From Thermodesulfovibrio sp. (GTDB lineage: Bacteria; Nitrospirota; Thermodesulfovibrionia; Thermodesulfovibrionales; UBA6898): a stretch of 62,492 nt of DNA. The position numbers were made by a program, and so were the translations under genes. The DNA lies in the NCBI GenBank assembly GCA_013824615.1, contig PNOC01000017.1, positions 1 to 62,492 on the forward strand, read 5' to 3'. Shown here in pieces: positions 23,766 through 62,492 of this stretch; position 1 is the first letter of the stretch; each line of letters begins with the position of its first letter. A model generated the notes under the pieces. That model was not told the DNA's origin. It searched no databases and saw nothing but the letters and a program-made list of their open reading frames with translations.

Positions 23766-23836
23766 TAATTATCAGGCAATAGTATTATTTATCAAATATG
23801 GCCGAGATAAATCCGCAAGGGAAGGAGGTGAGAGAG

Positions 23837-24334: not shown

Positions 24335-24356
24335 GAGCATGCATATCATAATCCGG

Positions 24357-24374
24357 AGGGGCTGTGAAGCCCCT
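24357..24374 (+). other. Hairpin after the rhodanese gene
   Basis: AGGGGCT (24357-24363), loop GTGA, AGCCCCT (24368-24374): a perfect 7-bp stem with a tetraloop and no T run. It lies in the spacer before a small membrane-protein gene. It could stabilise or process the mRNA, or attenuate transcription. Confidence 0.4.
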
Positions 24375-24391
24375 TCGTGCTTTACACGTCT

Positions 24392-25041: not shown

Positions 25042-25059
25042 GACTAAAAGGAGTTATCC

Positions 25060-25794: not shown

Positions 25795-25869
25795 GGCGCG
25801 GTCATCAGTGAACGGTGCGCGACAGGTAACTGTTTCCTCGGGTCAGGAACTGAGAGTATTGGAGGAACT

Positions 25870-26673: not shown

Positions 26674-26832
26674 TCTTTAATCCAGGAATCCGTTGGCATG
26701 TCCTGTTCCTTATGGGCTTCTCATCGGGACAATGGGTGCACCGGTTGTTTTCCTTTCAAAAACACTTACTATCAGGCTCTTGGAGACCTGCGCAACAATC
26801 CTCCTCAGTCAACGGGATTTCACAAAAAGTTC

Positions 26833-26862
26833 TTACGAAAAAGCTCATATTTACAGTATAAT
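26833..26862 (+). promoter_or_regulatory. Putative promoter for the NHL/LamG gene
   Basis: A perfect -10 TATAAT (26857-26862) lies 18 bp after TTACGA (26833-26838), a weaker -35. The NHL/LamG start is at 26952, and no gene lies between. Confidence 0.55.
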
Positions 26863-26951
26863 TTAGTCATAAATTCCCTGATCGTGGGAGGGGTTTATGG
26901 TGGAACGAGTATATAAATAAGATAATAAGCAGGTCGGGCAAGGGAGGAATT

Positions 26952-29900
26952 ATGTCAATGTCTGATGTTCGTGTGAAGAATCTGGTTATGCTGATTATGG
27001 TGCTATTTTCATTTTTTGTAATATTCAGCCTTGCCGGGCTGGCCTCTGCCGAAACCTACCAGTTTCAGCTCAAGTGGGGTTCTTCCGGAGCCGGAAACGG
27101 AGAGTTTAACTATGCCTCACGGGTCGCCGTTGCTCCATCCGGCTCTGTGTATGTGACTGATCACAGCAATAATCGTATCCAGAAGTTTGATATGAACGGG
27201 GGATACATAGGGCAATGGGGCTCGGCCGGGCCGGGAGAAAGTCAATTTAATAATCCTATGGGAATAGCGGTGGATACCTTTGGCAATGTCTATGTTGCCG
27301 ATACACAAAATAATCGCATCCAGAAGTTTGACTCTGATGGAGGTTTCATCCGGCAGTGGGGCGGCCCTGGTGGGGCTGATGGCGAATTTACTCAGCCCTT
27401 TGCTGTGGCTGCCAGTGCGTCAGGCCACATTTATGTTGCCGAAGATGGCAATCGGGTGCAGAAGTTCGACCTTGACGGCAGCTTCATTACAAAATGGGGG
27501 TCCTCGGGGACAAATCCCGGGCAGTTCTCCGGCCCTCGCGGTATTGCTGCAGACACCTTCGGCAATGTCTATGTGTCTGAGTACTTCAACAACCGGATAC
27601 AGAAGTTCACTTCCGACGGAGGCTACATAAGGCAGTGGGGCACTGCAGGGCCGCTTGATGGCCAATTTAATATGCCCTATGGCTTGGCCGCGGATGCAGC
27701 CGGGAATGTATTTGTGGTGGACCACGGCAACGGACGCGTGCAGAAGTTCGACCCGGAGGGTAACTTTATCAGCAGGTTCGGCTCCGGGGGGTCCGGGGAT
27801 GGCCAACTATCGTTCCCTACCGGTGTTGCTGTGAATGCTTATGGCAGCGTCTACGTGGCGGATATGTATAACAACCGTGTCCAAAAATTCTATCTTCCGG
27901 TTTGTGTAGCCCCTCCTTCCGGACTTGCAGGCTGGTGGACGGGGGACGGGAATGCAAACGATATCAGCGGCGGCCATAATGGGACCTTGATGAACGGCGC
28001 AACATATGAAGCCGGTCGGGTCGGGCAGGCCTTCAGTTTCAACGGCGCAAATGATTACGTGGCAATCCCCGCTCATGTTTCCATGAACCTTGGCACGGAG
28101 TTTACGGTCGATTTCTGGATGCAGCCGGCGGTGACTATTGACCCCTCAGACCCTCTGATGCATACCCTTCTTTTCAAGGGAGATTCCAATCTGATCGACA
28201 TAGCCAACGGCGATGGACGTATTGAAATTATCGGGCCTGCACAGCGACCCACCTCAGTCACGAGCACCTGGACCGCTGGCCAGTGGTATCACATTGCCGT
28301 AACATTTGATTCAGGCGGCTATAAGATATTTGTCAACGGGTTACAGGAAGGAAGTTCTCCGGATACCTATTCTATATTCGGAAATATGAGCGAGCTTGAT
28401 CTTGGGGGCGGGTTCGCCCCTGATACAGATTTCAACGGCCTTATTGACGAAATTGAGGTCTTCACCCGAGCCTTGTCTGATCAGGAGATTATCGCCATCT
28501 ATAATGCCGGCACCGCCGGTAAATGCAAACCCTGCATAGCTCCTCCTTCCGGCATGGTTGCATGGTGGGCGGGGGACGACAACGCCGAGGATATGCTGGG
28601 CATTAGCCCTGGCACATTGATGAATGGTGCAACCTTTGCCGACGGCAAGGTCGGCCGGGCGTTCAGTTTCAGCGGGCCGGAGGCTTCCGTTACGGTGCCT
28701 GCCAGCAGTTCCTGGGCTTTTGGAACCGCTGACTTTGCAATTGACTTTTGGGCATACAGTACATCTTTTGCTGCCCGTCGTCCTCTAATCAACAACCGAA
28801 AGACTGGAGCTGGTGACAATATGTGGGCCATAGAGATTTATGGCTCGGCAAATATGGTAGAGTTCCATTCAGGGTCGTCGATATACCTGCAGGCCACCAA
28901 CCCGTTGCTCAATTCGAACTGGAACCATATTGCCGTGACAAGATCTGCTGGTACGCTGAGCATTTATATAAATGGGACCCTGTCCGGGAGTGCAGGCGTA
29001 GGGAGCGATTTTTCTCAAGTCAATGATCTGCAAATAGGCAGGGACATTATGTCGGGGAACCAACTCTCCGGCGGGAGTTTTCAGGGTCTTATCGACGAAG
29101 TAGAAATCCATAACCGCGCACTGACCGCAGCCGAGATCGCTGCCATCTATAACGCTGGCGGCGGAGGCATGTGCAAAGCCTGTACTGCTCCGCCTTCCGG
29201 CATCGTCGCCTGGTGGAAGGCGGATGGCAATGCGGTTGACGCTGTGGGGACAAACCATGGGACGCTGCAGGGTGGAATGGGATACGTTCCCGGCAAGGTA
29301 GGTCAGGCATTCAGTTTTAACGGAGTGAACAATTATGTGCAGACACCTCCTACGAACAGTATTCCCTTCGGAGGAGCGGCAAGGACCCTGGACTTCTGGA
29401 TGAAAACAGATGATCAGCAGGATGGAAAAGCGCCAATCGTCTACGGGGCACACACTTCGGAGAGTGCATTTTATGTATCACTGTTCGGCGGAAAAGCCTG
29501 CATTGGATATTGGGGAGGTGGTCCGCTTGAAGTCTGCGGTTCAATGCCTGTCACCAATGGGGAATGGCACTATATAGCGCTCACGTACGAGTCCGGGGAG
29601 GCCAGGCTTTTTGTTGACGGAGTGCTGGACGCCGGCGTGACGAGATCGTATAATACTTCGCTTACGGAGACCGTACTTATCGGAGGGGGCGTTTCGGTTT
29701 CTTATTATTCCGGTTTTGTCGATGAGATCGGAATCTACGACCGTGCCCTATCCGCCCCGGAGATCGCCGCACTGTATAACGCGGGCAGCACAGGCAAGTG
29801 CTTTAACGCCGACACGACTCCCAACGGGTTTATCTTCGAACCCGTTACCGGTGCGACGCCGAATGTATCGTACAATGCCGGCATGATCACGGTAACCGGC

Positions 29901-47598: not shown

Positions 47599-47829
47599 AT
47601 GAAAAAATTGACGAGGATAACTTTTAACCCTGAAATAATGGGCGGCAAACCCTGCATCAGGGGGATGCGTGTTACGGTCGGGATGATCGTGGGCATGATC
47701 GCTTCAGGCCATTCCAGGGAAGACATTCTGAAACTCTATCCTTATTTGGAGGCCCCGGATATTGACGAAGCACTTTCTTACGCCGCATGGCGTTCTGAAG
47801 AAGTTGAAGTGCCTTTTCAGGCGGCATGA
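47599..47829 (+). CDS. DUF433 antitoxin-like protein
   Basis: Encodes 76 aa. The DUF433 signature is clear: ITFNPEIMGGKPCIRGMRVTVGMIV, then GHSREDILKLYPYLEAPDIDEALSYA. This is a small helix-turn-helix domain found as the antitoxin of DUF5615/PIN-like toxins. ATG follows GTGAGGTGAAGCC. Its stop overlaps the toxin start by ATGA, so they are translated together. As in related pairs it probably neutralises the toxin and represses its own promoter. Confidence 0.85.
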   Translation: MKKLTRITFNPEIMGGKPCIRGMRVTVGMIVGMIASGHSREDILKLYPYLEAPDIDEALSYAAWRSEEVEVPFQAA

Positions 47830-48188
47830 AGTTTCTGATCGATATGAATCTCTCTCCCGACTGGGTCGAGGTTCTTGCTGCTGAGGGCATAGAAGCCATT
47901 CACTGGTCAAAGATCGGATTAGCTACAGCGCAGGACAAAGAACTGATGGCATGGGCCAAAGGCAACGGCCATATCGTTTTAACCCACGATCTCGACTTCG
48001 GGGCTATTCTTGCTGCAACTGGCGCTGAAGCCCCAAGCGTTGTTCAATTGCGCTTACAGGATCTGGCGCCTTCACATGCCAAACAGCTTGTCGTTAAAGT
48101 TCTACATGATTACCGGCTTGAACTGGAGCAGGGCGCACTCATTAGTGTAGACGAGGATAAGGCTCGGGTAAGGATCTTGCCCCTGTGA
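47826..48188 (+). CDS. DUF5615 PIN-like toxin
   Basis: Encodes 120 aa. The N-terminal KFLIDMNLSPDWVEVLAAEGIEAIHW and the central GHIVLTHDLDFGAILA are the DUF5615 (Mut7-C/PIN-like) signatures, with acidic residues D7 and D57/D59 placed to bind the metal of a nuclease site. The partner is the overlapping DUF433 gene. The next frame, a helicase fragment, starts inside its stop. The pair sits at the edge of an accessory region. Confidence 0.85.
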   Translation: MKFLIDMNLSPDWVEVLAAEGIEAIHWSKIGLATAQDKELMAWAKGNGHIVLTHDLDFGAILAATGAEAPSVVQLRLQDLAPSHAKQLVVKVLHDYRLELEQGALISVDEDKARVRILPL

Positions 48189-48403
48189 TACTGAAATCCT
48201 ATCAGACCGATGCCCTTGACTGGCTGGAAGCTTTTTTCAGGCGCTGCAAGCTGAGCAAGAATCCAGCTGTTGCCTATGCGGAGACAACAGAGGAATGGCG
48301 TGGTATCGCACTGAATTACCGTTCTCTGAGGAGGCAGGATATCCGTTGCGGGCGCCTGAAAAAAGCTGAGGCTATCAGGGTTGCTCACCTTGATAGCCTC
48401 TAA
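48185..48403 (+). pseudogene. 5' fragment of a type III restriction/DEAD-box helicase gene
   Basis: GTG 48185 overlaps the toxin stop. About 48 residues (MILKSYQTDALDWLEAFFRRC, then NPAVAYAETTEEW and LNYRSL) match the extreme N-terminus of Res-type helicases, which normally continue for 800 or more residues with a Walker A motif. Here the similarity ends abruptly, and after 24 unrelated residues the frame stops at 48403. The gene was cut, either by insertion of the element that follows or by a deletion. Confidence 0.55.
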
Positions 48404-48429: not shown

Positions 48430-48474
48430 TGGTGGCGGGAAGAGGATTTGAACCTCTGACCTTCGGGTTATGAG
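48430..48474 (-). other. 3' half of a tRNA-Met (CAU) gene; attachment-site-like scar
   Basis: On the minus strand, from 48474 down to 48430, the sequence reads anticodon loop CTCATAA, stem CCCGA, variable loop, a T arm with TTCAAAT between AGAGG and CCTCT, acceptor strand TCCCGCC and ACCA. The other half is missing: beyond 48474 the sequence does not pair with CCCGA and is AT-rich. Tyrosine recombinases commonly use exactly this part of a tRNA gene (anticodon loop to 3' end) as attB. The fragment therefore looks like the left attachment site of an integrated element extending to the right. Confidence 0.75.
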
Positions 48475-48590
48475 AACTACATACAAATCACCATAGAACA
48501 GCTTACCATAAGGATCTACGCATAATCAAGCTATTATTTAGTAACTCTTAACGCCATTAAAAGTATCATATAATTTAAAATTTAATGATT

Positions 48591-48602
48591 TATACATGTA
48601 TA
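48591..48602. promoter_or_regulatory. 12-bp palindrome before the recombinase trio
   Basis: TATACATGTATA is a perfect palindrome within a very AT-rich stretch. TATAAA directly overlaps its right half and could be a -10 element. It may be an operator for the element. It also contains the ATG at 48596, an alternative start of the first gene. Confidence 0.35.
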
Positions 48603-48646
48603 AAATATGTTTGACTTTTCCTGCTTTTTCCTTTAATCTTTCTTTC

Positions 48647-49393
48647 ATGATTTTGTTCGATGTCAAAGCCATATCGCTTCATTCTGATTTGTCGGTATGT
48701 TCTCAGTCATTCTTCAAGAGGATGAAGAGGAGTCTGCTCAATAGCGGCATTAATCTTCTGTCATATGCCAAGTACGATTCCCCTTTCGTTCTCAGGAGCA
48801 ATAAAGGACAGCCGCCACAGCTTCTGTCACACCATTTCGTGTATCTGCTTGTCAAAAACGCTGGGGAACCCTCTTTTTACGCAAGGGAAGTCACTACCAT
48901 CGAGCAAGTGAGTGAGGTCTTAGCGGCCGACAAACTCCATTTTCGTCTTATAGAGAATGCATTGATGGGCAAGAAACCATATAGCTCGCAAACACAATCA
49001 CATCAGAAGCGCCGTTCGGCACAGCAACTATGCCCTCTTTGTCCGGGTCCTCTCACTGGACAGAAAGGCAAAAAAGGTAAAATCAAAGATGGAAAAGAAT
49101 ACTTCGAGGTCAAATGTCATTACCGTCACTACCCCAGGTACAATTGCGATTTCTTTGTCGAGTTAGAAAAGACAGAATACATTCTTTTCAAGAAAAACCG
49201 ATATCCAACCAATAAGTGGCTCAACAAACTTGATGCAAAGCGCTGCCCACGATGCAAGGACCTCTTATTTGAGATGAAGTTGCCAGACGGCAGAATTTAT
49301 CACCAATGTCGAAATACATTAATCAGGCAATTCCCTGGGGAAGATTACTGTGACTTTCGGACTGAGATAACCGATGAAAAACTCAAAAGATGA
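48647..49393 (+). CDS. Zinc-finger protein of unknown function, first gene of recombinase trio
   Basis: Encodes 248 aa from ATG 48647, or 265 aa from ATG 48596; neither has a clear ribosome site. The N-terminal half has no recognised domain. The C-terminal half has two cysteine-rich units: CPLCPGPL with CHYRHYPRYNC (about 130-170), and CPRCKDLLFEM with CRNTL...DYCDF (about 205-240), resembling zinc ribbons of the topoisomerase/nuclease type. It overlaps the next gene by 20 bases. Translational overlap with two recombinase-family genes suggests a DNA-binding accessory subunit of the element. Confidence 0.6.
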   Translation: MILFDVKAISLHSDLSVCSQSFFKRMKRSLLNSGINLLSYAKYDSPFVLRSNKGQPPQLLSHHFVYLLVKNAGEPSFYAREVTTIEQVSEVLAADKLHFRLIENALMGKKPYSSQTQSHQKRRSAQQLCPLCPGPLTGQKGKKGKIKDGKEYFEVKCHYRHYPRYNCDFFVELEKTEYILFKKNRYPTNKWLNKLDAKRCPRCKDLLFEMKLPDGRIYHQCRNTLIRQFPGEDYCDFRTEITDEKLKR

Positions 49394-51983
49394 TTTAGCA
49401 ATTAAGAGACTTTATAAAGTCACAAAGACTCCGGAAGCCGAACGCTTCTACCCGGAAGAAGTTATTAGAGATATCCTGACCTTTAATAATAAAGCCGAAT
49501 ATATGAAACATATCGAAATAGTATTGTTCATATTACGATTATTCGACGTACCAGAGGACTTAAAGGGGGCTGGGCATGTTATTCACTTTGTCTTTCCTTT
49601 TCTGGACCCTTTTTTAAAATTAGCTGGCATGTCAAAACGAGGCAGAGACCTGGTAATAGAGGTGACCGAGACTTGGATAGAATGTCTACTTTCTTTTTCT
49701 GACGACTCCTTGTACTTCGAAGACGTCACTATTTTAGAGTCTCAGCTTTTCCGTTTTCATCTCGAAGCGTCGGGTGTCAAGAAATCTAGAAGATATGGAG
49801 ACCGAATTCAGGAAATAGAATCTTCAATCCCGACACCGCTTTATCAAAGCTATGGACCATTTGTGCATTTATGCATAAGAGATTTCTTGATAAGTGATTT
49901 CGTGATAAAGGACTTTAGGCAGGAAACCCGTGAGAATACTATCGATGAGCATATTCGCTCGGCAAGGATGTTCTTCCATTTCATGCAGCAATCGATAAGA
50001 TATACAGCTAATCATCCCCCTAAAATACCCGAATACTATATAAATAATTTTGTGGAAGAGTATGACAGGATAGTCAATATTCGGATTTCCAGGGCTGAGC
50101 AGCCGGAGGTTGGTAACTTTTTCGATCTCGGGGAGCGGGCGTCTGCATATAAAAGATATTTCTGCAGACTCATTAAGGATCATTACACCCCAATCGATCA
50201 AGAAGACAGAAATCTTCTTCCAGAGTTACTTGATACGGAGATAGAGGACTGCGATTTTACGCAAACTGCTGAAGGGCGTGTCGAATGCTATGGAAAATCA
50301 AGTTCAGATGATGTACCCGACAACCTCAGGATGGTAACACACTCTTTGATTTTTCGGGAAGAAAGTGGGGACTCTAAAATCTATGGCCTTGAGGCTCCTA
50401 TCCTTGAAGAATTGATATTTGTCAGCGGGCATAAAGAGGCTGTAGTTAGAACAAAACCTACTTTAAGACGATCTTGGTCGGAATTCATCGATTTGAAGAA
50501 ATATTTCTTCTTCTGGGATAGCTTTTTTATTAATCTTTATTCCTATTCGAGACTATACCAGGTTATCGAGACGACCTTCAATGAGGAAGCCCAAAGCAGG
50601 GAAAATGTTATTTGTGTATTCTTGATGCTGCTCATCCATACGGGGCTTAACCCTCGCTATCTCTTGCAAACTCAGACTGAGACGGCTTCTGAAGATGCAC
50701 GGCAATCTTTGCCAGTCATCAGGAAGGATCGCGACCACTTCGAGTGCATAATTGGACTTCCTATTCCTGAAAGAAAGACCTTTGACTCTAGCGGGTGTCT
50801 GTCGACTTACAAGAATGTCACCGTTCCGATATTCCCTTTCGTGAAGCCCTATGTAAATAACTTGTTCTCCCCTGCAAAGAAATATCTTTTTAGCTTTGTG
50901 GACAAGAAAGGAGAGGAGAGCCGTATTGATCTGATCATGATTAGGGCTTTCCTCAAACAAAACCTTCAGCCATATGGGTTAAGCATAAGCCTGGAGGCGA
51001 TTGCCAATTCATTCTTCAGTCTGTACTCAACGCGATATGGCATGGATCCGGTTGTGGCATGTTACATAAGCAAAAACCATTATAGAATCTTTAATGCACC
51101 TTTGCACTACATCTTTGTTCCTAAAAAGCACCTATTTGAATCATATAGCAGGACATCAATCAAAGTGCACCGGGCGATTAAAGAAAACATGGAATTGATG
51201 ACTGTGGGTAAAAGCATACGTACCCCTGTAAGCCTTGCAGAGGATAATGTATTCAAGGCTGCCCAAAATGAAAGAGGATATGGTTCTCCCCAGATACCTG
51301 AGCGAGAAACATGGATTACTTTCGTGGATGACCTGAAGAAAAGCATCAAGTCGTGTGGAATCAAACAGCTCTACCGACGTCACAACCTGTATAGCATCTA
51401 TTTATATTTTGCGTTAATGCTTGCTACGAGTCTTCGGCCACGGAACAATCCTGACATCGCCTGGGACACTTACAACAGCCAGCTCGGGATTATGATACTA
51501 GCTGACAAGCTGAGCCCACAGTTTTATGAGGAAAGGCTGGTTCCAATTTCCAAGTCAGTCGGTGGATTAATCGACGGCCTTCGTAATAACTTCCCAAGGT
51601 TCAAGTCTATCGTCGACGATTATCTCTGCCCTGGCTTTTCGGATCTTCAGCCGTCTCGTCTGTTCTTTTTTCTCAATGAGAATTACGAGTCGGTAGCATT
51701 TGAGCTTAAAGCAATAAAGAGGATTTTGGCTGAAGAGTACATTTCTTTTCCTCTCCCCCTGAATACACCCAGGCACTACATAAGATCTTCGTTCTACTGG
51801 GAAAATATTCATCATGAACTGGCCTCCATCTTTATGGGACATCAGACGTCGGGCAAGGAATGGCTCACCGATTTCTCATCCGTAGACCTATCAGAGATAG
51901 TCGACATCTTTAGTAAGAACGTCGAAAGTGTGCTCCGAGAGCTTGGTTTTGACTCGGTTCAGTATCTTCCCGCTGTGAGATAA
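49374..51983 (+). CDS. Large degenerate tyrosine-recombinase-like protein
   Basis: Encodes 869 aa. Most of it has no recognisable domain, but the C-terminal 200 residues follow the tyrosine-recombinase pattern in weakened form: LATSLRPRNN (R688), RHYIRS (H801, R804) and FMGHQTSGKE (H823). The catalytic tyrosine expected about nine residues after the last His is absent (KEWLTDF there). It therefore probably cannot cut DNA alone, and may serve as a partner subunit for the intact recombinase encoded two bases downstream. Paired recombinases are known from Tn554 and other multi-recombinase elements. The start overlaps the zinc-finger gene. Confidence 0.6.
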   Translation: MKNSKDDLAIKRLYKVTKTPEAERFYPEEVIRDILTFNNKAEYMKHIEIVLFILRLFDVPEDLKGAGHVIHFVFPFLDPFLKLAGMSKRGRDLVIEVTETWIECLLSFSDDSLYFEDVTILESQLFRFHLEASGVKKSRRYGDRIQEIESSIPTPLYQSYGPFVHLCIRDFLISDFVIKDFRQETRENTIDEHIRSARMFFHFMQQSIRYTANHPPKIPEYYINNFVEEYDRIVNIRISRAEQPEVGNFFDLGERASAYKRYFCRLIKDHYTPIDQEDRNLLPELLDTEIEDCDFTQTAEGRVECYGKSSSDDVPDNLRMVTHSLIFREESGDSKIYGLEAPILEELIFVSGHKEAVVRTKPTLRRSWSEFIDLKKYFFFWDSFFINLYSYSRLYQVIETTFNEEAQSRENVICVFLMLLIHTGLNPRYLLQTQTETASEDARQSLPVIRKDRDHFECIIGLPIPERKTFDSSGCLSTYKNVTVPIFPFVKPYVNNLFSPAKKYLFSFVDKKGEESRIDLIMIRAFLKQNLQPYGLSISLEAIANSFFSLYSTRYGMDPVVACYISKNHYRIFNAPLHYIFVPKKHLFESYSRTSIKVHRAIKENMELMTVGKSIRTPVSLAEDNVFKAAQNERGYGSPQIPERETWITFVDDLKKSIKSCGIKQLYRRHNLYSIYLYFALMLATSLRPRNNPDIAWDTYNSQLGIMILADKLSPQFYEERLVPISKSVGGLIDGLRNNFPRFKSIVDDYLCPGFSDLQPSRLFFFLNENYESVAFELKAIKRILAEEYISFPLPLNTPRHYIRSSFYWENIHHELASIFMGHQTSGKEWLTDFSSVDLSEIVDIFSKNVESVLRELGFDSVQYLPAVR

Positions 51984-51985
51984 CC

Positions 51986-54412
51986 GTGGACATTGCAAAA
52001 CTTCAGGATGCAATTGACGGCATAAATGAGACCCTTATGAGGGTCTACGCCAGACCTCCCGGCTGTTGCAAGAAGGTTAAGGCAGCCATTCTTGCTAGGG
52101 CTACGACAAACGAGACCTTATCCCGCCTTGAGCTTACGTATAAAGACATCGATGAGATAGGAAAAGAATTGATTCATGAAAGCCCCTACAACTACGTAAC
52201 CTATCTCAACAGGAAGACATTGAACGATGTCCTACAACGGCTCATAAAAAAGGAAATGATCGTGAGCCCCTATTTCAATGTCCCGGAGCAGAAGCATAGA
52301 AAAGTGTACACGAAGTTTATCGACGTAGGCTATAAGGAATTGTTACTCATTGAGGCCATAGATCGAGAGCTGAGGGCATTCAGTCCACACACTGTGGAAT
52401 TGCCTGTGGAAACGACTCTCTCAGGCGATGATGATCTGATTTGCGGGATTATAGCATCCTCCGTTATCCATGGCGCTATGTTGTTCAAGGGTTTTCACGA
52501 ACAGTTGCTGTCAGTGGATGTTGGAAGCATCGATCTCAGGAATGGTTTCATGACGGTCAGAACTCATGATAGTAGAGATACAGAAGGCAATCACAATGTC
52601 GCTTTTTTCAGATATTTTATTTCACCCATCACGATGGTCTATTTGCTGAAATATGTATCTTTGCACAGTAAAGAATTGAGAATCATCAACCCACGACTAA
52701 GGAACGGGAATCCGAGGACTTTTTTTTTCGGTGAGCGATGGAAAGAAGGGCCTGGCAATATAACTTTAAATTCAGTTTTTCTGCAATGGACTGAGACTAT
52801 AGCGAAAAAGTACGATCTGCCATCAGGAATGGAGCTGGAGAGGTTTAGATCCATTAGTATGAGATATTTGACGATGAAATATCCCATATTTCTCTTAAGT
52901 GTCCAGTCAAGGGCGCTTCTTTCCTACTCGGTGCCCGTAGATCATTTTGCTCCTCTACTGAATGTGAAACTGAGTGGTCCTTCTTATGATTTAAAAACGT
53001 TATCAAAGAGCGGCAAAGGCTCTGATGAGGCGCTCCGGCAGATGCTGGATAACAACGAAACCCTTACTAATGCCGTTCTGGAAATTATTTCGCAACGGGG
53101 CAGCATAAAGGATAAGGTCGACAGAAAGCCAGTTGCTGTAGAAATCCGGCAAAAAGTGGATGAGATAACAAAGGCCATGTCGCAAGAATCTGGCGAAGTG
53201 CCGCCTGTACTTGGGAACTACCAGATATATTGGGATTGGCTTTTATATCTCATTGAGTCCACCTCTCTGTCGCCCGGATCCATTAGTACCTATACTGGAA
53301 GTATCGGCAGACACTTTATGCCCTTGCTATCGGAAAAGAGCATTTTAACCTCTAAAAAAGAATATATAGAAGAGCGTATTCTGAATTGTATTAAGCGCTA
53401 TGAGACAAACGATATTATTAAGGATCTGAGACGTTTTTTTAGTTTCATCAAGCTGCAACATCCTGAGGTTGACCTTCCGAGCTTATCCCAAAAGAAATTC
53501 TTAAAGGCGATATGTTCAACGCCAAAACCACTTCTCTATTTCGAAGACGTGCGAAAGGTTATCAGCGCTGTATCAGATATCCATCTTAGGTTGATTATCC
53601 TTCTTGGCTTTTATGCGGGGCTTAGGGCGGGAGAAATTGTCAACCTCAAACTCAGCAATCTGATTTACGACGGAGGGTACGTCCTTTGCGTAAGGAAATC
53701 AAAGACAAAGAATGGCTCCAGAAATATTCCACTTTATTTGTTGATGCCTGACGAGTATCTGATAGAACTTGTCACTTACTGGAAAGCAGAAACAAGCAAG
53801 AGAAGACCCGATGGCTTTCTTTTTGTCAAGAAAGGCAAGAAACTCAGCAAACACACGTCATCTACCGTAGCATGCTTGTTTCGGGAAATCCTTGGCATCG
53901 AAATGGAATTTCATCATCTGAGGCATTCCTTTGCGAACTGGGTTTTGATTCGATGGTTTGCGGCCATCTATGGAAAAGATCTCTTTGAACCGGGCTGTCA
54001 TTTCCTTAGCGAAGAAGTGTTTAACGATGAATATCTTGAAAAGTTGAGGTTGCTCTTGTTTGGCTTTCGGATACTGAAAAAAGGGCAGAACTCTTTTTCC
54101 CATGTTTTCGCGGCGCTGGCACGACTTATCGGTCACGGCAGCCCCAGAATAACGATCAGGTATTATGTACATGTAATAGATTTTCTCATGCATCTCTATT
54201 TGAGGAGAAAGCACGGTGATTATCACGTCAAACTGACGAACAAGATGATGGCTGAGTTGTTAAACGTGTCACATGTGACGTTGCCAAAATATTTCGCGGT
54301 CAACCAAGTTAAACCCATGACGGTACAGGACATCGTCAATGCACAAAAGCGACGTCTTGGCTTGTCTGATATGATGGCATTTGAGACTCAGCAGTCCGGT
54401 CAGTCAGACTGA
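51986..54412 (+). CDS. Large tyrosine recombinase/integrase
   Basis: Encodes 808 aa from GTG 51986, two bases after the previous stop. Residues about 400-500 resemble a SAM-like core-binding domain (YQIYWDWLLYLIESTSLSPGSI). The C-terminal catalytic domain is complete: GLRAGEI (R547), a Lys in the beta hairpin SKTKNGSRNIPL, HHLRHSF (H643, R646), IGHGSPRIT (H717) and Y726 in IRYYVH. The first 400 residues are unlike ordinary integrases, which have 300-450 aa in total. About 50 extra residues also sit between HxxR and GH. It is the probable engine of the element. Confidence 0.8.
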   Translation: MDIAKLQDAIDGINETLMRVYARPPGCCKKVKAAILARATTNETLSRLELTYKDIDEIGKELIHESPYNYVTYLNRKTLNDVLQRLIKKEMIVSPYFNVPEQKHRKVYTKFIDVGYKELLLIEAIDRELRAFSPHTVELPVETTLSGDDDLICGIIASSVIHGAMLFKGFHEQLLSVDVGSIDLRNGFMTVRTHDSRDTEGNHNVAFFRYFISPITMVYLLKYVSLHSKELRIINPRLRNGNPRTFFFGERWKEGPGNITLNSVFLQWTETIAKKYDLPSGMELERFRSISMRYLTMKYPIFLLSVQSRALLSYSVPVDHFAPLLNVKLSGPSYDLKTLSKSGKGSDEALRQMLDNNETLTNAVLEIISQRGSIKDKVDRKPVAVEIRQKVDEITKAMSQESGEVPPVLGNYQIYWDWLLYLIESTSLSPGSISTYTGSIGRHFMPLLSEKSILTSKKEYIEERILNCIKRYETNDIIKDLRRFFSFIKLQHPEVDLPSLSQKKFLKAICSTPKPLLYFEDVRKVISAVSDIHLRLIILLGFYAGLRAGEIVNLKLSNLIYDGGYVLCVRKSKTKNGSRNIPLYLLMPDEYLIELVTYWKAETSKRRPDGFLFVKKGKKLSKHTSSTVACLFREILGIEMEFHHLRHSFANWVLIRWFAAIYGKDLFEPGCHFLSEEVFNDEYLEKLRLLLFGFRILKKGQNSFSHVFAALARLIGHGSPRITIRYYVHVIDFLMHLYLRRKHGDYHVKLTNKMMAELLNVSHVTLPKYFAVNQVKPMTVQDIVNAQKRRLGLSDMMAFETQQSGQSD

Positions 54413-54526: not shown

Positions 54527-56437
54527 CTAATTGCGCTTCTTTACCGGGAATCGGCATACATCGCTTATCACTGGGCAATTGGGTAATGACTTCCGAAATG
54601 TTTTTCCGTAAAGTTTAGTCCTAATGCGTGCGTCTAATATCGCCACTACGCCGGAATCATTTTCTCTTCTAATGAGTCTCCCGAAGCCCTGTCTGAATTT
54701 TATTAACGCAGGCGGAAGCAGGTATGACCAGAAAGGCTGCAGGCCCCGTTTTTTCAACTCTTCCTGATGAGCCATGGCAACCGGATCGGTCGGCACGCCA
54801 AAAGGCAACTTCATGATAATCACGCACTGTAACGCGGGGCCGGGAATATCGACCCCTTCCCAGAAGGTTGCCGCACCGAGAAGCACTCCTTTATCTGTTT
54901 TCTTGAATTTATTAATGAGACTGTTTGTTGCGCTATCTCCCTGTTTTAGAAAAACGAAATCAGGGCACTGTTTACACAATAATTCGTGAGCCTCATTCAT
55001 GGCAGCATAACTGGTGAAAAGGATCAATGTTCTTCCCTGGAAATGCGTGATAAGTTTTTCGATTTCGGCGATAGCTGCCGGAACGTAGCCTTTCTCTAAG
55101 GGCTCGGGCATGGTTGACGGAATATAAATAGCAGCTTGTTTCCTGTAATCAAAGGGCGATTCTACAATCTTTTCCTCGGCGTTTATGATTCCTATCCTCG
55201 ATCGATAAAATCGCATATTCTTGTTCACCGCAACGGTGGCAGAAACATGCACTGTAGTAATTTTGTTTGCGCTGAACAGTTTTTTCCGTAAGATATCTGA
55301 GACTGAAAGAGGCGTCGCAGTAAAGGTCCAGTTGTGTTTTGTCACGTGCTTCCAATGAACATATCCTTTTTCTTTTTTCAATATACAATCTATGATTTTA
55401 ACGAAATCGTCCAATTGAGCTGAATATTGCATAACGAGGTCGACTTTGCATTTTTGCAGAATGCTGCTGAGATGAATCAGTGAAGACTGCAATTGTTTCA
55501 GGCATTCCAAATCCTCATCCGTTAAATCCTGCCCTATATCTTTTAGTGTATGTATTGCTGTTTCGTGTAATTCATAGATTCTTTCTACTACTGATCTTAT
55601 AGCTTTTATGGCAGCATCTTTCAGCTCACGGGATACCCGTACTCTGCCTAAAAGACCGCCGTCCGATCGCTGATCGTACAATTCTTTAATTGCTGTGATG
55701 ACATCTTTGCCTGAAATATCGTTGCTAAAAACTATGGTGGCTGTGTCTTCCAAATTATGGCACTCGTCAAAAATGATTGCTTCGGTGTCGTCCAATTTCT
55801 TTGAGCTATTTTTCAATAAATGTAGTGTTTTGTGGTGGTTAGTCACGAGAATATGAGCATCTCGATATTTTTTGGCTGTCATCATATAGGTGCAGCTTTC
55901 CTTTAACTGGCATTTTGATGAGCAGGCGTGGCTGTCGCGGCAAATTCTCTTTTTTAGGCTATCTGGCACTGAAAACTCGCAGTCAAGAAACGTTGCTTCT
56001 GGGTTTTTCCTGCGCAAAACGGCGATTTTCTCCAAAGCATCGATATCATCGGAGTTTCCAAAAAAACCCAATTGATGTCCCTGTGACATCCGTGAGTCAC
56101 ATATATAATTGTCAGATCCCAGACTGAGCAAAAACTCAAACGGAAGAATCTTCTGCAAATTAGGCAGGTCTACATCGACAAGCTGCTTTTGCAGTGTTTT
56201 GCTAGAAGTGCTAATAATCACTTTTTTCTTCGTTTTTAGAGACAAAAGTATAGCTGGAATGAGATATGCGATGGTTTTACCCACGCCAGTGGGAGCCTCT
56301 GCGATGAGATGTTTCAACTCTCTCAAGCAGTATTCAATGTGGCATGCCAATTCGAGCTGTTGATTCCTTGGCAGCAGTTTCATGATTTTTTGCAGTTCCG
56401 CAAAAATTGCTTCGGTTTCACAAGCAGATGATTTCAT
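54527..56437 (-). CDS. DinG/XPD-type ATP-dependent DNA helicase with Fe-S cluster
   Basis: Encodes 636 aa from ATG 56437, which follows GGGAGG on the minus strand (an ATG 12 bases earlier is possible). Walker A is EAPTGVGKT. The four Fe-S cysteines lie between it and motif II (YICDS, then CRDSHACSSKCQLKESC). Motif II is DECH (FDECHNLED). Motifs V and VI are GAATFWEGVDIPG and RQGFGRLIRREND. This is the superfamily 2 family of DinG/XPD helicases, which unwind 5'-3'. It is convergent with the recombinase gene and shares its AT-rich composition, so it is probably cargo of the element or a defence or repair function. Confidence 0.85.
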   Translation of the reverse strand: MKSSACETEAIFAELQKIMKLLPRNQQLELACHIEYCLRELKHLIAEAPTGVGKTIAYLIPAILLSLKTKKKVIISTSSKTLQKQLVDVDLPNLQKILPFEFLLSLGSDNYICDSRMSQGHQLGFFGNSDDIDALEKIAVLRRKNPEATFLDCEFSVPDSLKKRICRDSHACSSKCQLKESCTYMMTAKKYRDAHILVTNHHKTLHLLKNSSKKLDDTEAIIFDECHNLEDTATIVFSNDISGKDVITAIKELYDQRSDGGLLGRVRVSRELKDAAIKAIRSVVERIYELHETAIHTLKDIGQDLTDEDLECLKQLQSSLIHLSSILQKCKVDLVMQYSAQLDDFVKIIDCILKKEKGYVHWKHVTKHNWTFTATPLSVSDILRKKLFSANKITTVHVSATVAVNKNMRFYRSRIGIINAEEKIVESPFDYRKQAAIYIPSTMPEPLEKGYVPAAIAEIEKLITHFQGRTLILFTSYAAMNEAHELLCKQCPDFVFLKQGDSATNSLINKFKKTDKGVLLGAATFWEGVDIPGPALQCVIIMKLPFGVPTDPVAMAHQEELKKRGLQPFWSYLLPPALIKFRQGFGRLIRRENDSGVVAILDARIRTKLYGKTFRKSLPNCPVISDVCRFPVKKRN

Positions 56438-56610
56438 ATGACCTCCCATGAATATTTTCCGTGGACATTGATGCTTGTTTCATTACTCAAATCCTCCCTT
56501 TGTTTTTAGACTTTTGTTAATATTACCGGGAGGTCGAAATGGTTAATATCACATGAAATCAGGGTGTTAGCTGTGGCTAAAATGCTACAAGTTGCAATTA
56601 AGTTGCAAAT

Positions 56611-57439: not shown

Positions 57440-57469
57440 TTGACAAACGTATTCTCTTTCGTTTTAAAT
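57440..57469 (+). promoter_or_regulatory. Promoter of first cobalamin-riboswitch operon
   Basis: A perfect -35 TTGACA (57440-57445) is followed after 18 bp by TTAAAT (57464-57469). The riboswitch aptamer begins about 8 bp further, as expected for a leader RNA. Confidence 0.65.
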
Positions 57470-57476
57470 TAAATTA

Positions 57477-57747
57477 ACTTTCAGGTGCCGCAAGGCATAA
57501 GAGGGAATCCCGTGAGGAGCAATCCAAACCGGGAGCGGTCCCGCCGCTGTAACCGGGACGAAAGCCGAAATGCCACTGTCTGCGCAAACAGACGGGAAGG
57601 CCGGTGAGTAGGATGAACCGGGAGCCAGAAGACCTGCCTGAATGATTCGTATCCGATCGTTACAAGTACCTTCCCGCGGATGGGAGGTGAGGATGAAGCA
57701 AACAGGGTGCAATCCTCAAGGCATTTAATGTCTTGAGGTTTTTTTTT
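57477..57747 (+). promoter_or_regulatory. Cobalamin riboswitch with terminator expression platform
   Basis: The class signatures are all present: P1 strands TTCAGG (57480-57485) and CCTGAA (57637-57642), the core GAGGGAATCC, the highly conserved GGTCCCGCCGCTGTAACCGGGACG (57538-57561), then GCCACTG, GGGAAGGC and the B12-box end AGCCAGAAGACCTGCC. Between aptamer and gene a GC-rich stretch precedes the terminator at 57714-57747. Adenosylcobalamin binding should favour termination, so the operon is repressed when B12 is plentiful. Confidence 0.96.
57714..57747 (+). terminator. Riboswitch-controlled terminator
   Basis: CCTCAAG (57714-57720) pairs with CTTGAGG (57732-57738). The stem extends inward through GCAT/ATGT to a 3-nt loop, followed by nine T (57739-57747). 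It lies 29 bp before the methyltransferase start. Confidence 0.9.
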
Positions 57748-57776
57748 GCAAACAGGATAGGAACAAATAAACGATC

Positions 57777-59345
57777 ATGACGAGACAGACCACATTCTCT
57801 TTACCTGATCCGCAGGATAGCTCTCCCCAGTATCTTGAAGATCTCGCAACCGGCTACTGGTATTCCGATATGCTCTTTGCCGCTGTTGAGCTAGATATTT
57901 TTACGTTCCTTGGAGAAGACGGCAAGTTGCCCGATGAGCTGGCTGAAAGCCTTGATATGGGAGGGGAAGGGCTTTCCCGTTTTCTCCATGCCCTCACGAC
58001 CATTGGCCTTATAGTGAAACACGGAGACAGATACTGCAATACTTCCGTTGCGAATCAATACCTTGTTTCCGGTAAACAGGAATATTGGGGCGACTCGATC
58101 TTATGGAGAAAAGAGCTTTCGCAGAACTGGAAAACGCTTATCCCCAGTCTTAAGTCCGGAGGCAGGATCGGATACGGCCCCGTAAGTGGCAAGGAAGTTG
58201 AAGACCCCGCAGTGCGGATGAATCGCATCACACGGTATACCGATGCCATGGCCTGTTGTGCCAGGGTGAAGGCCCGTGAGATGATGCCTTTTTTTGAGGG
58301 GCTTGACATCAGCGGCGATCTGCTCGATATCGGGTCGGGATCAGGGGCACTTGCCACGGTTTTCCTCGATCGTTTTCCATTGCTTAAAGCCTGCCTCGTT
58401 GATCTCCCGGAGGTACTCGGGATCTCTGAAAAAAGGATGCAGGAGGAAGGTCTTGCAGCAAGGACGTCCTTTGTGCCTGCAAATGTCCTTGAGGCATGGC
58501 CCCTTGGAGAGGCCCGGTATGACGTCATCATGCTTTCGAATATCGTCCATGCCTTCTCCGAGGCAGAACTTCCTCATCTGATTGCCCAGGCTGCGGCACA
58601 CCTGAAACAGGAAGGGCTTCTGATTATCCACGATTTTTTCCTCGATCATTTTTCGTCCAAGGCTGCACTCTTTGATCTCAATATGTTCATCAACACATAT
58701 AACGGAAGGGTTTTTCGTTCTTCTGTGGTGGAGAAGAAATTATCAGAAGAAAGCCTGCTTCATACGGGCTTGCTTCCGCTGAAGACTGATACTGCAGTTA
58801 TTATCAGTGCGCGCAATCCTGATATACTCTCACGCCTCAGTCTGGACTCAACGCAGCTTCTCATATCGAGGATACGTCACATGGGGTTTTCAGACTGCAG
58901 GCTGATTTCTGCGGAGCAGATCACTGTTTCAGAGTGGCCGGAACTCAAATGCAGATTCGGCTGTAGTTACTACGGAAGTCCCCATTGCCCTCCGCATGCC
59001 CCTCAACCAGAGCATACACGGAAGGTTATATCTGGCTACCGTACCGCTCTTATCATTCAGGGGGAACCCCCGACACGGGACTTCCAGCGCGGGGTGCTGC
59101 AGGCAGAGCGGGAGGCGTTTCTCCTTGGGTTTCACCGGGCTCTTGCTTACTGGGCCGGCCCCTGCACCCTCTGCAAGACTTGTGAAACCGATAAAAACTG
59201 CTGCAACAGAAAAGACGCACGCCCCTCGATGGAAGGCGCAGGCATCGATGTCTATGAGACCGTCAGAGCAGCCGGCTTATCGCTAAGAACACTCGCTGAC
59301 AAGACCGACTTTGTAAAATATTTCGGTCTTCTTCTTATCGAATGA
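57777..59345 (+). CDS. bzaC: SAM-dependent methyltransferase fused to DUF2284; candidate BzaC
   Basis: Encodes 522 aa. The N-terminal part (about 15-95) is the winged-helix dimerisation domain of class I O-methyltransferases of the BchU/hydroxyindole type. The methyltransferase domain has LLDIGSGSGALATVFL (SAM loop) and AHLKQEGLLIIHDFF. The last 150 residues are a DUF2284 metal-binding domain rich in cysteine (CRFGCSYYGSPHCPPHAP, CTLCKTC, NCCNRK). Control by a cobalamin riboswitch and two B12-type radical SAM genes behind it fit the anaerobic benzimidazole pathway, in which BzaC methylates 5-hydroxybenzimidazole. The assignment is by context; another cobalamin-repressed methylation is possible. 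Confidence 0.6.
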   Translation: MTRQTTFSLPDPQDSSPQYLEDLATGYWYSDMLFAAVELDIFTFLGEDGKLPDELAESLDMGGEGLSRFLHALTTIGLIVKHGDRYCNTSVANQYLVSGKQEYWGDSILWRKELSQNWKTLIPSLKSGGRIGYGPVSGKEVEDPAVRMNRITRYTDAMACCARVKAREMMPFFEGLDISGDLLDIGSGSGALATVFLDRFPLLKACLVDLPEVLGISEKRMQEEGLAARTSFVPANVLEAWPLGEARYDVIMLSNIVHAFSEAELPHLIAQAAAHLKQEGLLIIHDFFLDHFSSKAALFDLNMFINTYNGRVFRSSVVEKKLSEESLLHTGLLPLKTDTAVIISARNPDILSRLSLDSTQLLISRIRHMGFSDCRLISAEQITVSEWPELKCRFGCSYYGSPHCPPHAPQPEHTRKVISGYRTALIIQGEPPTRDFQRGVLQAEREAFLLGFHRALAYWAGPCTLCKTCETDKNCCNRKDARPSMEGAGIDVYETVRAAGLSLRTLADKTDFVKYFGLLLIE

Positions 59346-59372
59346 GCCAATGAAGGAGCCGATGAAAATACG

Positions 59373-60695
59373 ATGCGTATACTTCTGATACAATCGCTGT
59401 CCGTAGAAGGTATGAGTGCGGAGAAGGTATATCCGATCGGCCTCGTCTCACTTGCCGGTCTGATTACAAGGCCGGAAAATGAGGTTGCACTCATAGACCT
59501 GAACATACACCCTGATCCCTTTCGGGCCCTAAGGGAGAAGCTGGTCGAGTTCAATCCTGACGTCGCGGGGATTTCTCTCAGAAATATCGATCCCCTCGGC
59601 AATAAGGCCTCGTCGCTCATCCCTCCTTTTGTCGCTGTCGTCCGCATGGTAGCGACCATCTGTCCGAGGACGCGTATCATTGCAGGTGGAACCGGTTTTT
59701 CGCTCTTTCCCGAGCGCCTGATGCTTGAACTCCCGGAGATCAGCTATGGCATTATCGGCGAGGCCGAAGAATCCTTTCCGGCCCTGATCGCTTCACTTGA
59801 TAATCCGCCGTCTCTGAAAGGTCTCTGCAGACGAAAGGGAGACGGGATTATCATAACGCCGCCGTCCCGCGAATACGACATGGCACATTACGAAGCACCC
59901 GATCGCACGCTGCTTGATCCGGCGCAATACCTTGACATCAACACCTATGTCCCGGCAATCGGTATTGAAACAAAGCGGGGCTGTCCGTATAAGTGCGCCT
60001 ACTGTGTCTATCCCAAGCTCCAGGGAACGAAGCTGCGGTGCAGACTGCCACATTCGGTTGTGGACGAAATGGAATCCCTCCATAAGGAATACGGCATCAA
60101 AAGCTTTCATTTCACCGATCCGGTGGTGAACATCCCCGGAGGGCACCTCGAAGATATCTGCAGAGAGATTCTCAGAAGAAAGCTGTTGATCCGCTGGGAT
60201 GGGTTCATGCGCGAAAACCTGCTGACTGGAAAAAATGTCTCACTGTATGTAAAGGCCGGTTGCGAATGTTTTTCTTTTTCACCCGACGGTTACTGCGGGG
60301 AGGCGCTCGAGATGCTCGGCAAAGGGATGGGAGAAGAGGATATTCTGAAAGCGGCCAGGTTAGTTTCAAAAACCGACGTTATTACGGTCTATCACTTTAT
60401 GGTGAACGTTCCCGGAGAGACGAAGGAGACCGCAGAAAAGGGCATTAAACTCTTCGACCGCCTGTATGATCTTCATGCTGCCAAACGGAACCTCGGTACG
60501 ATTGTGCTGAATAATATCAGGATACATCCCGGCACGCGGATTGAAGAAATTGCCCGAAGAGACGGCGTTATCGGCCCCAATACCGACCTTCTCTATCCAA
60601 CGTATTATAATCCGGCTCCCTTCGAATCGCTCCGGTATAAGCTCGAAACAATGCACTACCTCAGAAATATCTTTTCCTGGGAGGGACTGTCATGA
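59373..60695 (+). CDS. bzaD: B12-binding-type radical SAM protein; candidate BzaD
   Basis: Encodes 440 aa. The N-terminal part (about 1-140) is a B12-binding-like Rossmann domain (MRILLIQS, VALIDLNIHPD, IIAGGTGFSLFPE, IGEAEESFP) without the DxHxxG motif; this is usual for BchE-like radical SAM enzymes. The radical SAM core has C204, C208 and C211 in CPYKCAYC for the 4Fe-4S cluster. ATG 59373 follows AAGGAG. In bza operons BzaD and BzaE C-methylate the methoxybenzimidazole intermediates; which of the two genes here is which cannot be told from sequence alone. Confidence 0.6.
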   Translation: MRILLIQSLSVEGMSAEKVYPIGLVSLAGLITRPENEVALIDLNIHPDPFRALREKLVEFNPDVAGISLRNIDPLGNKASSLIPPFVAVVRMVATICPRTRIIAGGTGFSLFPERLMLELPEISYGIIGEAEESFPALIASLDNPPSLKGLCRRKGDGIIITPPSREYDMAHYEAPDRTLLDPAQYLDINTYVPAIGIETKRGCPYKCAYCVYPKLQGTKLRCRLPHSVVDEMESLHKEYGIKSFHFTDPVVNIPGGHLEDICREILRRKLLIRWDGFMRENLLTGKNVSLYVKAGCECFSFSPDGYCGEALEMLGKGMGEEDILKAARLVSKTDVITVYHFMVNVPGETKETAEKGIKLFDRLYDLHAAKRNLGTIVLNNIRIHPGTRIEEIARRDGVIGPNTDLLYPTYYNPAPFESLRYKLETMHYLRNIFSWEGLS

Positions 60696-62206
60696 AGATT
60701 GTTCTTCTGGAACATCCGCGCTCCATCACCGTGGAGCGGTGCAACGACATTGCAAATACGCCTCTTTCCTCATGTCTGCTTACCGGGTATGCCGGAGCTG
60801 TGCTGGCTAAAGAGGGGCACGAGGTCCGGATTATCGAAGGATACCTTGACCGACTTTCCTGGGATTCGATACATGAGACGATCCAGACTGCAAAACCCGA
60901 TATCCTCGGCGTGCATATGGTCTATCACTGGAAAGGTGACGAAGAGCTCTACCGGTTTCTTGGTGAACTCAGAGAAGAAGGCCTCGCACCTCTTATCATT
61001 GCGTATGGTTTTTACCCCACCATCTCACATGCGCAGATACTGGACGACTGCAGCTCTATTGACGCCGTAGTCGTTGGTGAACCGGAAGTGCCCTTCGCCA
61101 GCCTCGCTCGCTATCAGCAGGGGCAGGGCATTCTCCGACAGATACCGGGAATAGCAGCCCGCTCCGGTTCAGGGGATGTTGTCCTCATCCCCCAGAAGCC
61201 AGTTGCTGATCTTGACTCTATTCCTTTTCCGCTTAGGACAGAGGCACTCTACCGGATTGGCGAGGTGAATATCCTTGGCAGCAGAGGATGCTACGGCCGA
61301 TGCACCTTCTGTTATATCAACACCTTCTATGGCAAGGGAATGCCTTGGAGGTTCCGGAGCCCTGAAAATATTATTGCAGAGATTGACGCAATCATCCAGG
61401 AGCGCGGGGCACGGGATTTTTATTTTACCGACCCGAATTTTTTCGGTCCCGGACAGAGGGGACAGGAACGCGCGATGAAGATCGCAGAGCTTCTGAAGCC
61501 GCGCAACATACTCTTCGGCATTGAGGGCAGGGTCAATGACATCAGGGATGAGACGATTGAAGCTCTCGTCGAAGCTGGCCTCCGCCATATTCTCATCGGA
61601 CTCGAGAGCGGCAGGAACGAGGCGTTGCAGCGCATGAACAAAATGACAACGGTTGCAGAAAATGAGGAGGCCCTCAGGATTCTCAGAAAGCACGGCATCG
61701 AACCGAATGTCGGTTTTATTATGTTTGAGCCCGACTCAACGATCGAGGACCTCCGTACTAATTTTGAGTTTCTAAAACGGAATAATCTGCTCAAGAACCT
61801 TCCGGTAACCGCCAATGTTCTGTACCATCATCAGATCATCCTCGGTGGTACCGATGCCTATCATGAGCTCAGGAATACAGGCCGGCTGGAACTCTCTGCC
61901 TCTTCAGCCTATGAAGGCACTGCCTATTTTCAGAATGCTGCGGTTGCGGAGCTGGCAGCCATTATGCGGGAGATTACCAACTTCTTATTCAGCGTTATGG
62001 ACGGTATCTGGAGCGGGAAAACAATCTCGCCCCCCGGCTCACACGAGAAGTACCAGACAGTCAATCAGATACTTGTCGATGTTTTCGAACAGAGTCTCTC
62101 TACACTTGAGCAAGAAGGCCGGCTCAGCAATGAAGCACCAGCCTTGGTCCTGAGTCAGAGCAGGGAAAAGATCTCACTGCTAATTGGCGATAATCATGAG
62201 CACTGA
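60692..62206 (+). CDS. bzaE: B12-binding-type radical SAM protein; candidate BzaE
   Basis: Encodes 504 aa; ATG overlaps the previous stop (ATGA). The N-terminal B12-binding-like domain (about 1-140, HEVRIIEGYLDRLSWDSI, VVVGEPEVPFASL) precedes the radical SAM core with C200, C204 and C207 in CYGRCTFC, YFTDPNFFGPG and IGLESGRNEALQRM. The C-terminal helical region (about 400-504) is typical of BchE/methyltransferase-type members. As the third gene under a cobalamin riboswitch it most likely makes part of the B12 lower ligand. The operon ends here; a second riboswitch begins 70 bp later. Confidence 0.6.
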   Translation: MKIVLLEHPRSITVERCNDIANTPLSSCLLTGYAGAVLAKEGHEVRIIEGYLDRLSWDSIHETIQTAKPDILGVHMVYHWKGDEELYRFLGELREEGLAPLIIAYGFYPTISHAQILDDCSSIDAVVVGEPEVPFASLARYQQGQGILRQIPGIAARSGSGDVVLIPQKPVADLDSIPFPLRTEALYRIGEVNILGSRGCYGRCTFCYINTFYGKGMPWRFRSPENIIAEIDAIIQERGARDFYFTDPNFFGPGQRGQERAMKIAELLKPRNILFGIEGRVNDIRDETIEALVEAGLRHILIGLESGRNEALQRMNKMTTVAENEEALRILRKHGIEPNVGFIMFEPDSTIEDLRTNFEFLKRNNLLKNLPVTANVLYHHQIILGGTDAYHELRNTGRLELSASSAYEGTAYFQNAAVAELAAIMREITNFLFSVMDGIWSGKTISPPGSHEKYQTVNQILVDVFEQSLSTLEQEGRLSNEAPALVLSQSREKISLLIGDNHEH

Positions 62207-62238: not shown

Positions 62239-62268
62239 TTGACAAACTTTCAGAGCGTGTGTTTTTAT
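62239..62268 (+). promoter_or_regulatory. Promoter of second cobalamin-riboswitch operon
   Basis: TTGACA (62239-62244) is followed by an AT-rich TTTTAT (62263-62268) at 18 bp. The aptamer begins a few bases further, the same arrangement as at 57440. Confidence 0.55.
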
Positions 62269-62274
62269 TAGATT

Positions 62275-62492
62275 AACTTTCAGGTGCCGCAAGGCATAAG
62301 AGGGAATCCCGTGAGGAGTAATCCAAACCGGGAGCGGTCCCGCCGCTGTAACCGGGACGAAAGCCGAAACGCCACTATCTGCGCAAGCGGACGGGAAGGC
62401 CGGTGAGTAGGATGAACCGGGAGCCAGAAGACCTGCCTGAATGATTCGTATCCGAGTACGATATGGCTATACGCATTCGCCAATCGTCATAA
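62275..62492 (+). promoter_or_regulatory. Second cobalamin riboswitch (expression platform cut by window end)
   Basis: The aptamer (62275-62442) is complete and differs from the first copy at only about five positions, most of them in one hairpin (CTATCTGCGCAAGCGGACG here). Identity extends past the aptamer through GATTCGTATCCGA, then stops. The regulated gene lies beyond the window; a ThiC-like bza synthase, cobT or a cobalamin-transport gene would be expected. Confidence 0.95.

Follow-up and report, generated by a model that had tools for sequence, protein, structure and literature searches.

Does the three-gene cluster beside the 3' half of a tRNA-Met gene in genome G000, a Thermodesulfovibrio sp. 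of the phylum Nitrospirota, encode the recombination machinery of an integrative element, and, if so, is that element of a type already described? The window analyzed here is the entire contig C17 of this genome (62,492 bp). Given the tRNA fragment, the predicted folds of the three proteins (P1, P2, and P3), and the recurrence of the same arrangement in other genomes, we consider it probable (roughly 0.7) that the trio is the recombination module of a tRNA-targeting integrative element, one end of which (attR) lies in the window.

A tRNA-fMet half lies beside three coupled genes

ARAGORN identified no complete tRNA in the window. On the reverse strand, positions 48430 to 48474 carry 45 bp identical to an intact tRNA-fMet gene located elsewhere in the genome (G000:C43:16336-16412), spanning the anticodon loop to the acceptor end, in keeping with the initial annotation of this sequence as the 3' half of a tRNA-Met gene, which we interpret as an attachment-site scar. 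The 5' half of tRNA-fMet occurs in a single copy in G000, at C43. A 23-bp part of the tRNA half was matched in 0 of 100 shuffled windows, and a separate Rfam search did not detect the half tRNA, returning chance matches only. Located 3' of the half tRNA on the same strand, a terminator-like hairpin with a T-run (48359 to 48400) resembles those found behind intact tRNA-fMet genes in relatives; the terminator region and half together are 82% identical over 84 bp to the sequence following the intact G006 tRNA, and the terminator region is 76% identical over 121 aligned bp to its equivalent in G002.

The genes encoding P1 (48596 to 49393), P2 (49374 to 51983), and P3 (51986 to 54412) all lie on the forward strand and run away from the half tRNA, each overlapping or abutting the next gene, as previously noted. 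Homologues of P1 align from Met18, and its true start is probably at 48647, 172 bp from the tRNA half, close to the 170 bp first given. Downstream of the trio, a gene encoding a YoaA/DinG-like helicase (54527 to 56449) lies on the reverse strand; in G050 and G034, too, a helicase of this type follows the trio, there on the trio's own strand. The forward-strand interval 57466 to 62206, containing a cobalamin riboswitch, a methyltransferase-DUF2284 gene, and two B12-binding radical SAM genes, is probable cargo, given that it falls between the tRNA scar and the end of the contig.

Cobalamin riboswitches at 57466-57655 and 62265-62454 and a SAH riboswitch at 361-449 all scored above the Rfam gathering score, and the first of these is 122 bp ahead of the methyltransferase-DUF2284 gene. 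A DUF5615/PIN-like gene encoding a possible toxin (47826-48188) lies just beyond the element, on its chromosomal flank.

P2 and P3 are recombinase-fold proteins and P1 has a ParB fold

P3 (808 aa) matches Pfam PF00589 (E 3.8e-16) and, as judged from its sequence, is a long tyrosine recombinase with the full R-K-H-R-H-Y set (R547, K573, H643xxR646, H717, and Y727), every residue of which is kept in 14/14 aligned relatives, bearing out the earlier description of a recombinase with all catalytic residues. That its N-terminal half might also be a recombinase fold is only a guess.

P2 (869 aa) has no Pfam match in its window copy, and its relatives match PF00589 (Phage_integrase) weakly, with a best E of 3e-5 (homologue L054). 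In its structure model (pLDDT 70.5, pTM 0.52), residues 160-603 matched XerA 4a8e (Z 15.0, 251 aligned, rmsd 12.0), and the catalytic part of this region (384-601) matched the SSV1 integrase (Z 12.4 and rmsd 3.1 over 144 aligned residues). A second region, residues 639-824, matched 3nkh (Z 13.8, rmsd 2.9, 169 aligned). The modeled P2 therefore contains two tyrosine-recombinase folds in tandem, its two matches to recombinases accounting for its double size. The sub-domains of P2 and P3 aligned weakly with hhalign (E 0.007 to 0.15), hence the two-fold reading rests on the structure model. Among the 11 sequences reaching the C-terminal domain, R688, K712, R800, and H823 are kept in all, H801 and R804 (HxxR) in 10, and a Tyr at the nucleophile column in none, consistent with the initial annotation of P2 as a recombinase-like protein lacking the catalytic tyrosine. 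In the N-terminal fold, Tyr579, near the nucleophile position, is invariant (12/12) and almost nothing else is kept there. In the 11 loci compared, the distance matrices of P2 and P3 are correlated (r 0.94; 0 of 5000 permutations), indicating that the pair travels as a unit.

P1 (265 aa) combines a ParB/Srx-fold N-domain with two Cys4 zinc ribbons, the protein carrying two CxxC pairs with partner Cys residues. The best match to its AlphaFold model (pLDDT 81.8) was ParB 7o0n (Z 10.1, rmsd 2.8, 90 residues aligned), the best Foldseek hit was to Noc (E 7e-5), and the gene occupying the equivalent position in G139 matches Pfam ParB_N (E 5e-8). By the modeled fold of its N-domain, P1 belongs to the ParB superfamily. 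The canonical arginine-rich ParB motif is, by eye, not intact in P1 and is present in the G139 counterpart. The first genes of L091, L093, L094, and L098 read as ParB-like without the ribbons. The label "recombinase trio" used in the initial annotation hence fits P2 and P3 but not P1, which is a ParB-fold zinc-ribbon protein.

Half tRNAs recur upstream of the trio across the phylum

We scrutinized genome, phage, and plasmid collections for relatives of the trio. The P2 profile matched 7 of 176 genomes of the order and 17 of 395 genomes sampled from the phylum Nitrospirota. No match to P2 or P3 was found among 50,697 phage records, no relative was confirmed in viral contigs scanned with P2, and genome contigs scanned with P3 alone gave no match. 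Distant relatives of both proteins are encoded by adjacent genes, as in the trio, on Vibrio cyclitrophicus pLMG21359 and on Acinetobacter and Sphingobium plasmids (profile E 8e-34 to 6e-22 for P2 and 2e-55 to 3e-39 for P3), but the first gene beside these pairs has no significant match to P1. A tblastn search of 72,556 plasmid records with P2 gave one weak match, in Ketogulonicigenium. Treating G006 and G101 as independent hosts was rejected, their loci being 99.994% identical over 15.8 kb and representing one contig binned twice; the contigs concerned, G006:C165 (L072) and G101:C32 (L073), were binned in different families, i.e., cross-contamination of MAGs.

Trio loci were scanned for tRNA T-arms outside complete tRNAs. 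G124 (a P3 fragment) and G101 were not counted, leaving 16 loci, 13 of which had at least 5 kb upstream; those of G139, G196, and G246 fell short of this threshold. Two T-arm matches lacking tRNA context, upstream in G139 and downstream in G188, were dropped. A 3'-half tRNA was present upstream of the trio in 8 of the 13 loci, being of the fMet type in G000, G050, G034, G006, and G188, Lys in G349 and G351, and Gly in G103, which has a conventional integrase alongside and is the weakest of the eight cases. Despite having at least 5 kb upstream, G253, G266, G279, G408, and G238 had no half tRNA there. Where present, the half tRNA was on the strand opposite the trio in every case (8/8), at a distance of about 0.1 to 15 kb, and the T-arm scan found none downstream. 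Within the order, at least two copies of the fMet 3' half were found in 7/7 genomes with P2 vs. 8/169 of the others (Fisher p 7e-9; 8e-8 with the contig shared by G006 and G101 counted once).

An 88.7-kb element in G188 is delimited by a tRNA repeat

On a single contig, G188:C76 carries the half tRNA (21389-21429), the trio (22893-28732), and the 3' end of an intact tRNA-fMet (from 110140), enclosing 88.7 kb. The two tRNA copies (21389-21429 and 110140-110180) match at 41/41 positions and, extended through the terminator, are 97.5% identical over 80 bp. Partial and intact tRNA ends with a recombinase between them, the arrangement expected of a tRNA-targeting element, are thus found on one contig in G188, whereas in G000 itself the half and intact tRNA-fMet are on separate contigs (C17 and C43). 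The tRNA-fMet sites of the relatives G003 (C6) and G004 (C96) are without the element; for the G000 element itself, neither an empty site nor an excised circle was seen. The repeat delimiting the G188 element and the recurrence of the same geometry across the phylum support the earlier proposal that a three-gene module is part of a tRNA-associated integrative element.

The G188 element carries defence cargo, including Wadjet JetABCD, the Gabija protein GajA (E 4e-205) with a GajB-like helicase, a Druantia-like component (DruE-like), and a ZacC-like protein; its ORFs also read as including AbiE genes. Inspection of the ORFs by eye revealed no genes for conjugation or virions. Within this defence island, the start of one ORF (G188:C76:66753-67883; L125) looked tubulin/FtsZ-like by eye.

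A small gene and CAGGAC repeats may mark the opposite end

A gene encoding a small protein of ~97 aa lies beside tRNA-fMet in 14 of 176 genomes, the G000 copy being at C43:16549-16842; that it is a native gene was rejected given its presence in just these 14. Eleven of the 14 have it directly downstream of an intact tRNA-fMet, accompanied by two or three CAGGAC repeats spaced 11-12 bp apart. In G154, it likewise follows an intact tRNA, but the repeat is a variant one, and in G089 none was found next to it. G188, which is outside the order, has four CAGGAC repeats. The repeats (L122, L127, and L052), located between the terminator and the small gene, were absent from five mononucleotide-shuffled copies of all loci. 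In G001 (C82:7402; L057), a half tRNA-fMet with the repeats is followed directly by the small gene, which is how a junction between two elements, tandem or circular, would be expected to look.

The small protein is encoded in 5/7 genomes with P2 vs. 9/169 without. Seven of these nine P2-negative carriers have the gene beside the intact tRNA-fMet; none of the nine has a second fMet 3' copy, which counts against the gene being an end marker. We favor, without regarding it as settled, the small protein as marking the tRNA-side end of trio elements, possibly as a candidate excision factor with the CAGGAC repeats as putative arm sites. The other end of the G000 element is probably at C43:16413 onward, adjoining the intact tRNA. 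If this is right, the element extends from C43:16413 to C17:48475 by way of unassembled DNA, with transporter genes (by reading) as cargo on the C43 side and the cobalamin-riboswitch genes on the C17 side. The join is tentative, as the flank upstream of the C43 tRNA is not syntenic with that of G000's genus and the ends of C17 and C43 do not overlap.

SE and GInt elements are the closest of the designs compared

Among the published designs available for comparison, SE and GInt come closest, although neither fits the gene set of the trio. SE elements likewise have an operon of overlapping or coupled genes at one end and pair Tfp, a recombinase-fold protein without catalytic residues, with the long recombinase IntB (PMC10214605, PMC9345347, as far as accessible). 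In the same accessible text, they additionally have a second active recombinase (IntA), Srap, and imperfect 19-bp inverted ends, are reported from Gammaproteobacteria only, and have no described tRNA target. The trio, unlike SE, has a ParB-zinc P1, a two-fold P2, and tRNA core repeats of ~80 bp. In place of IntA-Tfp-IntB-Srap with two intact recombinases, P3 alone has the catalytic set and the first gene encodes a ParB-fold protein. GInt elements share with the trio a multi-gene recombinase operon at one end, a degenerate protein (GinC), and cargo islands, but they have four genes (GinA-GinD), two intact recombinases, 10-11 nt repeats, and ssb targets (PMC5385486, available portions), and the main text of that paper makes no mention of tRNA. 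Only two recombinase-fold genes are present here, compared with the three integrase genes plus GinD of ginABCD.

RIT and Tn554 resemble the trio in having several tyrosine-recombinase genes in a row (PMC8138268, in the part available to us). RIT, however, comprises three recombinases (RitA, RitB, and RitC) and Tn554 comprises TnpA, TnpB, and TnpC, whereas the trio has one active recombinase, one degenerate, and one ParB-like protein. Three consecutive tyrosine recombinases are not found, P1 being no recombinase by fold, nor are the two intact recombinases of Tn554, as P2 is without the Tyr and P1 is a ParB-fold protein. A temperate phage is likewise not indicated, given the lack of P2 and P3 relatives in phage records and of any virion gene seen by eye in the G188 element. 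Gamma-Mobile-Trio elements also have three signature proteins and islands rich in both defence and offence, according to the descriptions in citing papers (PMC12039261, PMC12715929). In a search for GmtX, GmtY, and GmtZ homologues, no GMT-named NCBIfam model matched the window or Vibrio proteins, in a library that may hold no GMT models. Gamma-Mobile-Trio elements are reportedly described from Gammaproteobacteria. The trio may be related to them.

In the accessible portion of the open literature on ParB plus tyrosine-recombinase or zinc-ribbon elements and trios, we found nothing describing the trio module. The initial annotation's possible "new class" is only partly supported, given the plasmid-borne P2 and P3 relatives, the possible relation to Gamma-Mobile-Trio elements, and the fact that a catalytically dead recombinase working alongside a long, active partner is already known from SE (Tfp/IntB) and GInt (GinC) in the text accessible to us (PMC10214605, PMC5385486). 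Our best reading is that the element works like SE and GInt but differs in gene set and target.

Proposed mechanism and alternative explanations

We propose that the element integrates within tRNA genes, in their 3' half, the target in G000 being the initiator tRNA-Met. P3 would be the catalytic recombinase, cutting in the anticodon loop and rejoining DNA within the core, from anticodon loop to terminator, that the element and tRNA gene have in common. Integration would restore a whole tRNA at one end and leave a 3'-half scar at the other. P2, with its double recombinase fold and a C-terminal site without nucleophile, may act as a noncutting synapse partner, and P1 as a DNA-binding accessory loading on or bridging sites at the element ends through its ParB fold and zinc ribbons. 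The chemistry ascribed to P3 follows from the established tyrosine-recombinase family, and the roles of P1 and P2 from conservation and analogy with SE elements, in which, according to the accessible text, the ends reportedly cannot recombine unless intA, tfp, intB, and srap are all present (PMC10214605). The genes and their residues, the predicted folds, the scar, the recurrent geometry, the complete element in G188, and the co-evolution of P2 and P3 are observed, whereas we infer the division of labour, movement of the element, and recombination by the trio rather than by another integrase.

The main alternative is that another integrase is responsible. Conventional integrases occur near the trio in G050, G034, and G188, with weaker matches in G103 and G351 and one by reading in G139. 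The trio could be a passenger or nested element in islands that conventional arm-binding integrases of the PF12167 type, present in those of G050, G034, and G188, integrate at tRNA-fMet. A trio-less 20-kb element in G003 (C56:2638-22455; L062, L063), extending from an intact tRNA-fMet to a half, has a conventional integrase beside the tRNA, making tRNA-fMet a shared hotspot, and the P2-negative genomes with extra fMet 3' copies also count in favor of this account. We nevertheless consider this account unlikely. No conventional integrase was found on C17 or C43 of G000, where no recombinase outside the trio was present, or, with the integrase profile, in the G006 locus; in G188 and G050 it is at neither end; and in all five fMet loci, the trio is the nearest of the identified recombinases to the half tRNA. 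A passenger would also leave the fixed orientation of trio to scar unexplained.

The varying scar-to-trio distances and the accretion seen at tRNA-fMet in G003 and G001 would be compatible with the half tRNA being a relic of an older, unrelated insertion, with the trio nearby by chance or through island accretion. This is very unlikely given that the half recurs in five fMet and two Lys loci from different families in a constant strand relation and that G000, G050, G034, G006, and G188 each have exactly one fMet half per genome. A third account, in which the trio is no mobility module but a system for chromosomal functions or defence that travels in tRNA-borne defence islands, is scarcely credible. 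In its favor are the many defence systems of the G188 island and the fact that integrases do not usually have a ParB-like partner; against it, PADLOC matched none of P1, P2, and P3 and the catalytic set of P3 is complete in all 14 proteins.

Starting from the recombination module that we favor, a bolder and rather doubtful extension can be drawn. The active site of P2 might be split over its two folds, the phosphate-gripping residues (R688, K712, H801, R804, and H823) being in the C-terminal fold and Tyr579 in the N-terminal one, perhaps with Flp-like shared cutting, and P2 and P3, if the N-terminal half of P3 were a recombinase fold, might form a four-domain pseudo-tetramer replacing the usual tetramer. 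Together with the ParB-type P1, they would then represent a separate ancient recombination superfamily extending from Nitrospirota to proteobacterial plasmids.

Implications

If the trio is indeed the recombination module of a tRNA-targeting element, a tRNA-targeting branch from a poorly studied phylum would be added to the small group of mobile elements in which a giant active recombinase has a catalytically dead partner, and a ParB-type protein would be tied to site-specific recombination. It would help to explain how large defence islands, such as the 88.7-kb example in G188, enter tRNA genes without evident conjugation or phage genes. P2, the tRNA half, and the end repeats provide a sequence handle by which such islands can be found, and what dead recombinases contribute would become testable.
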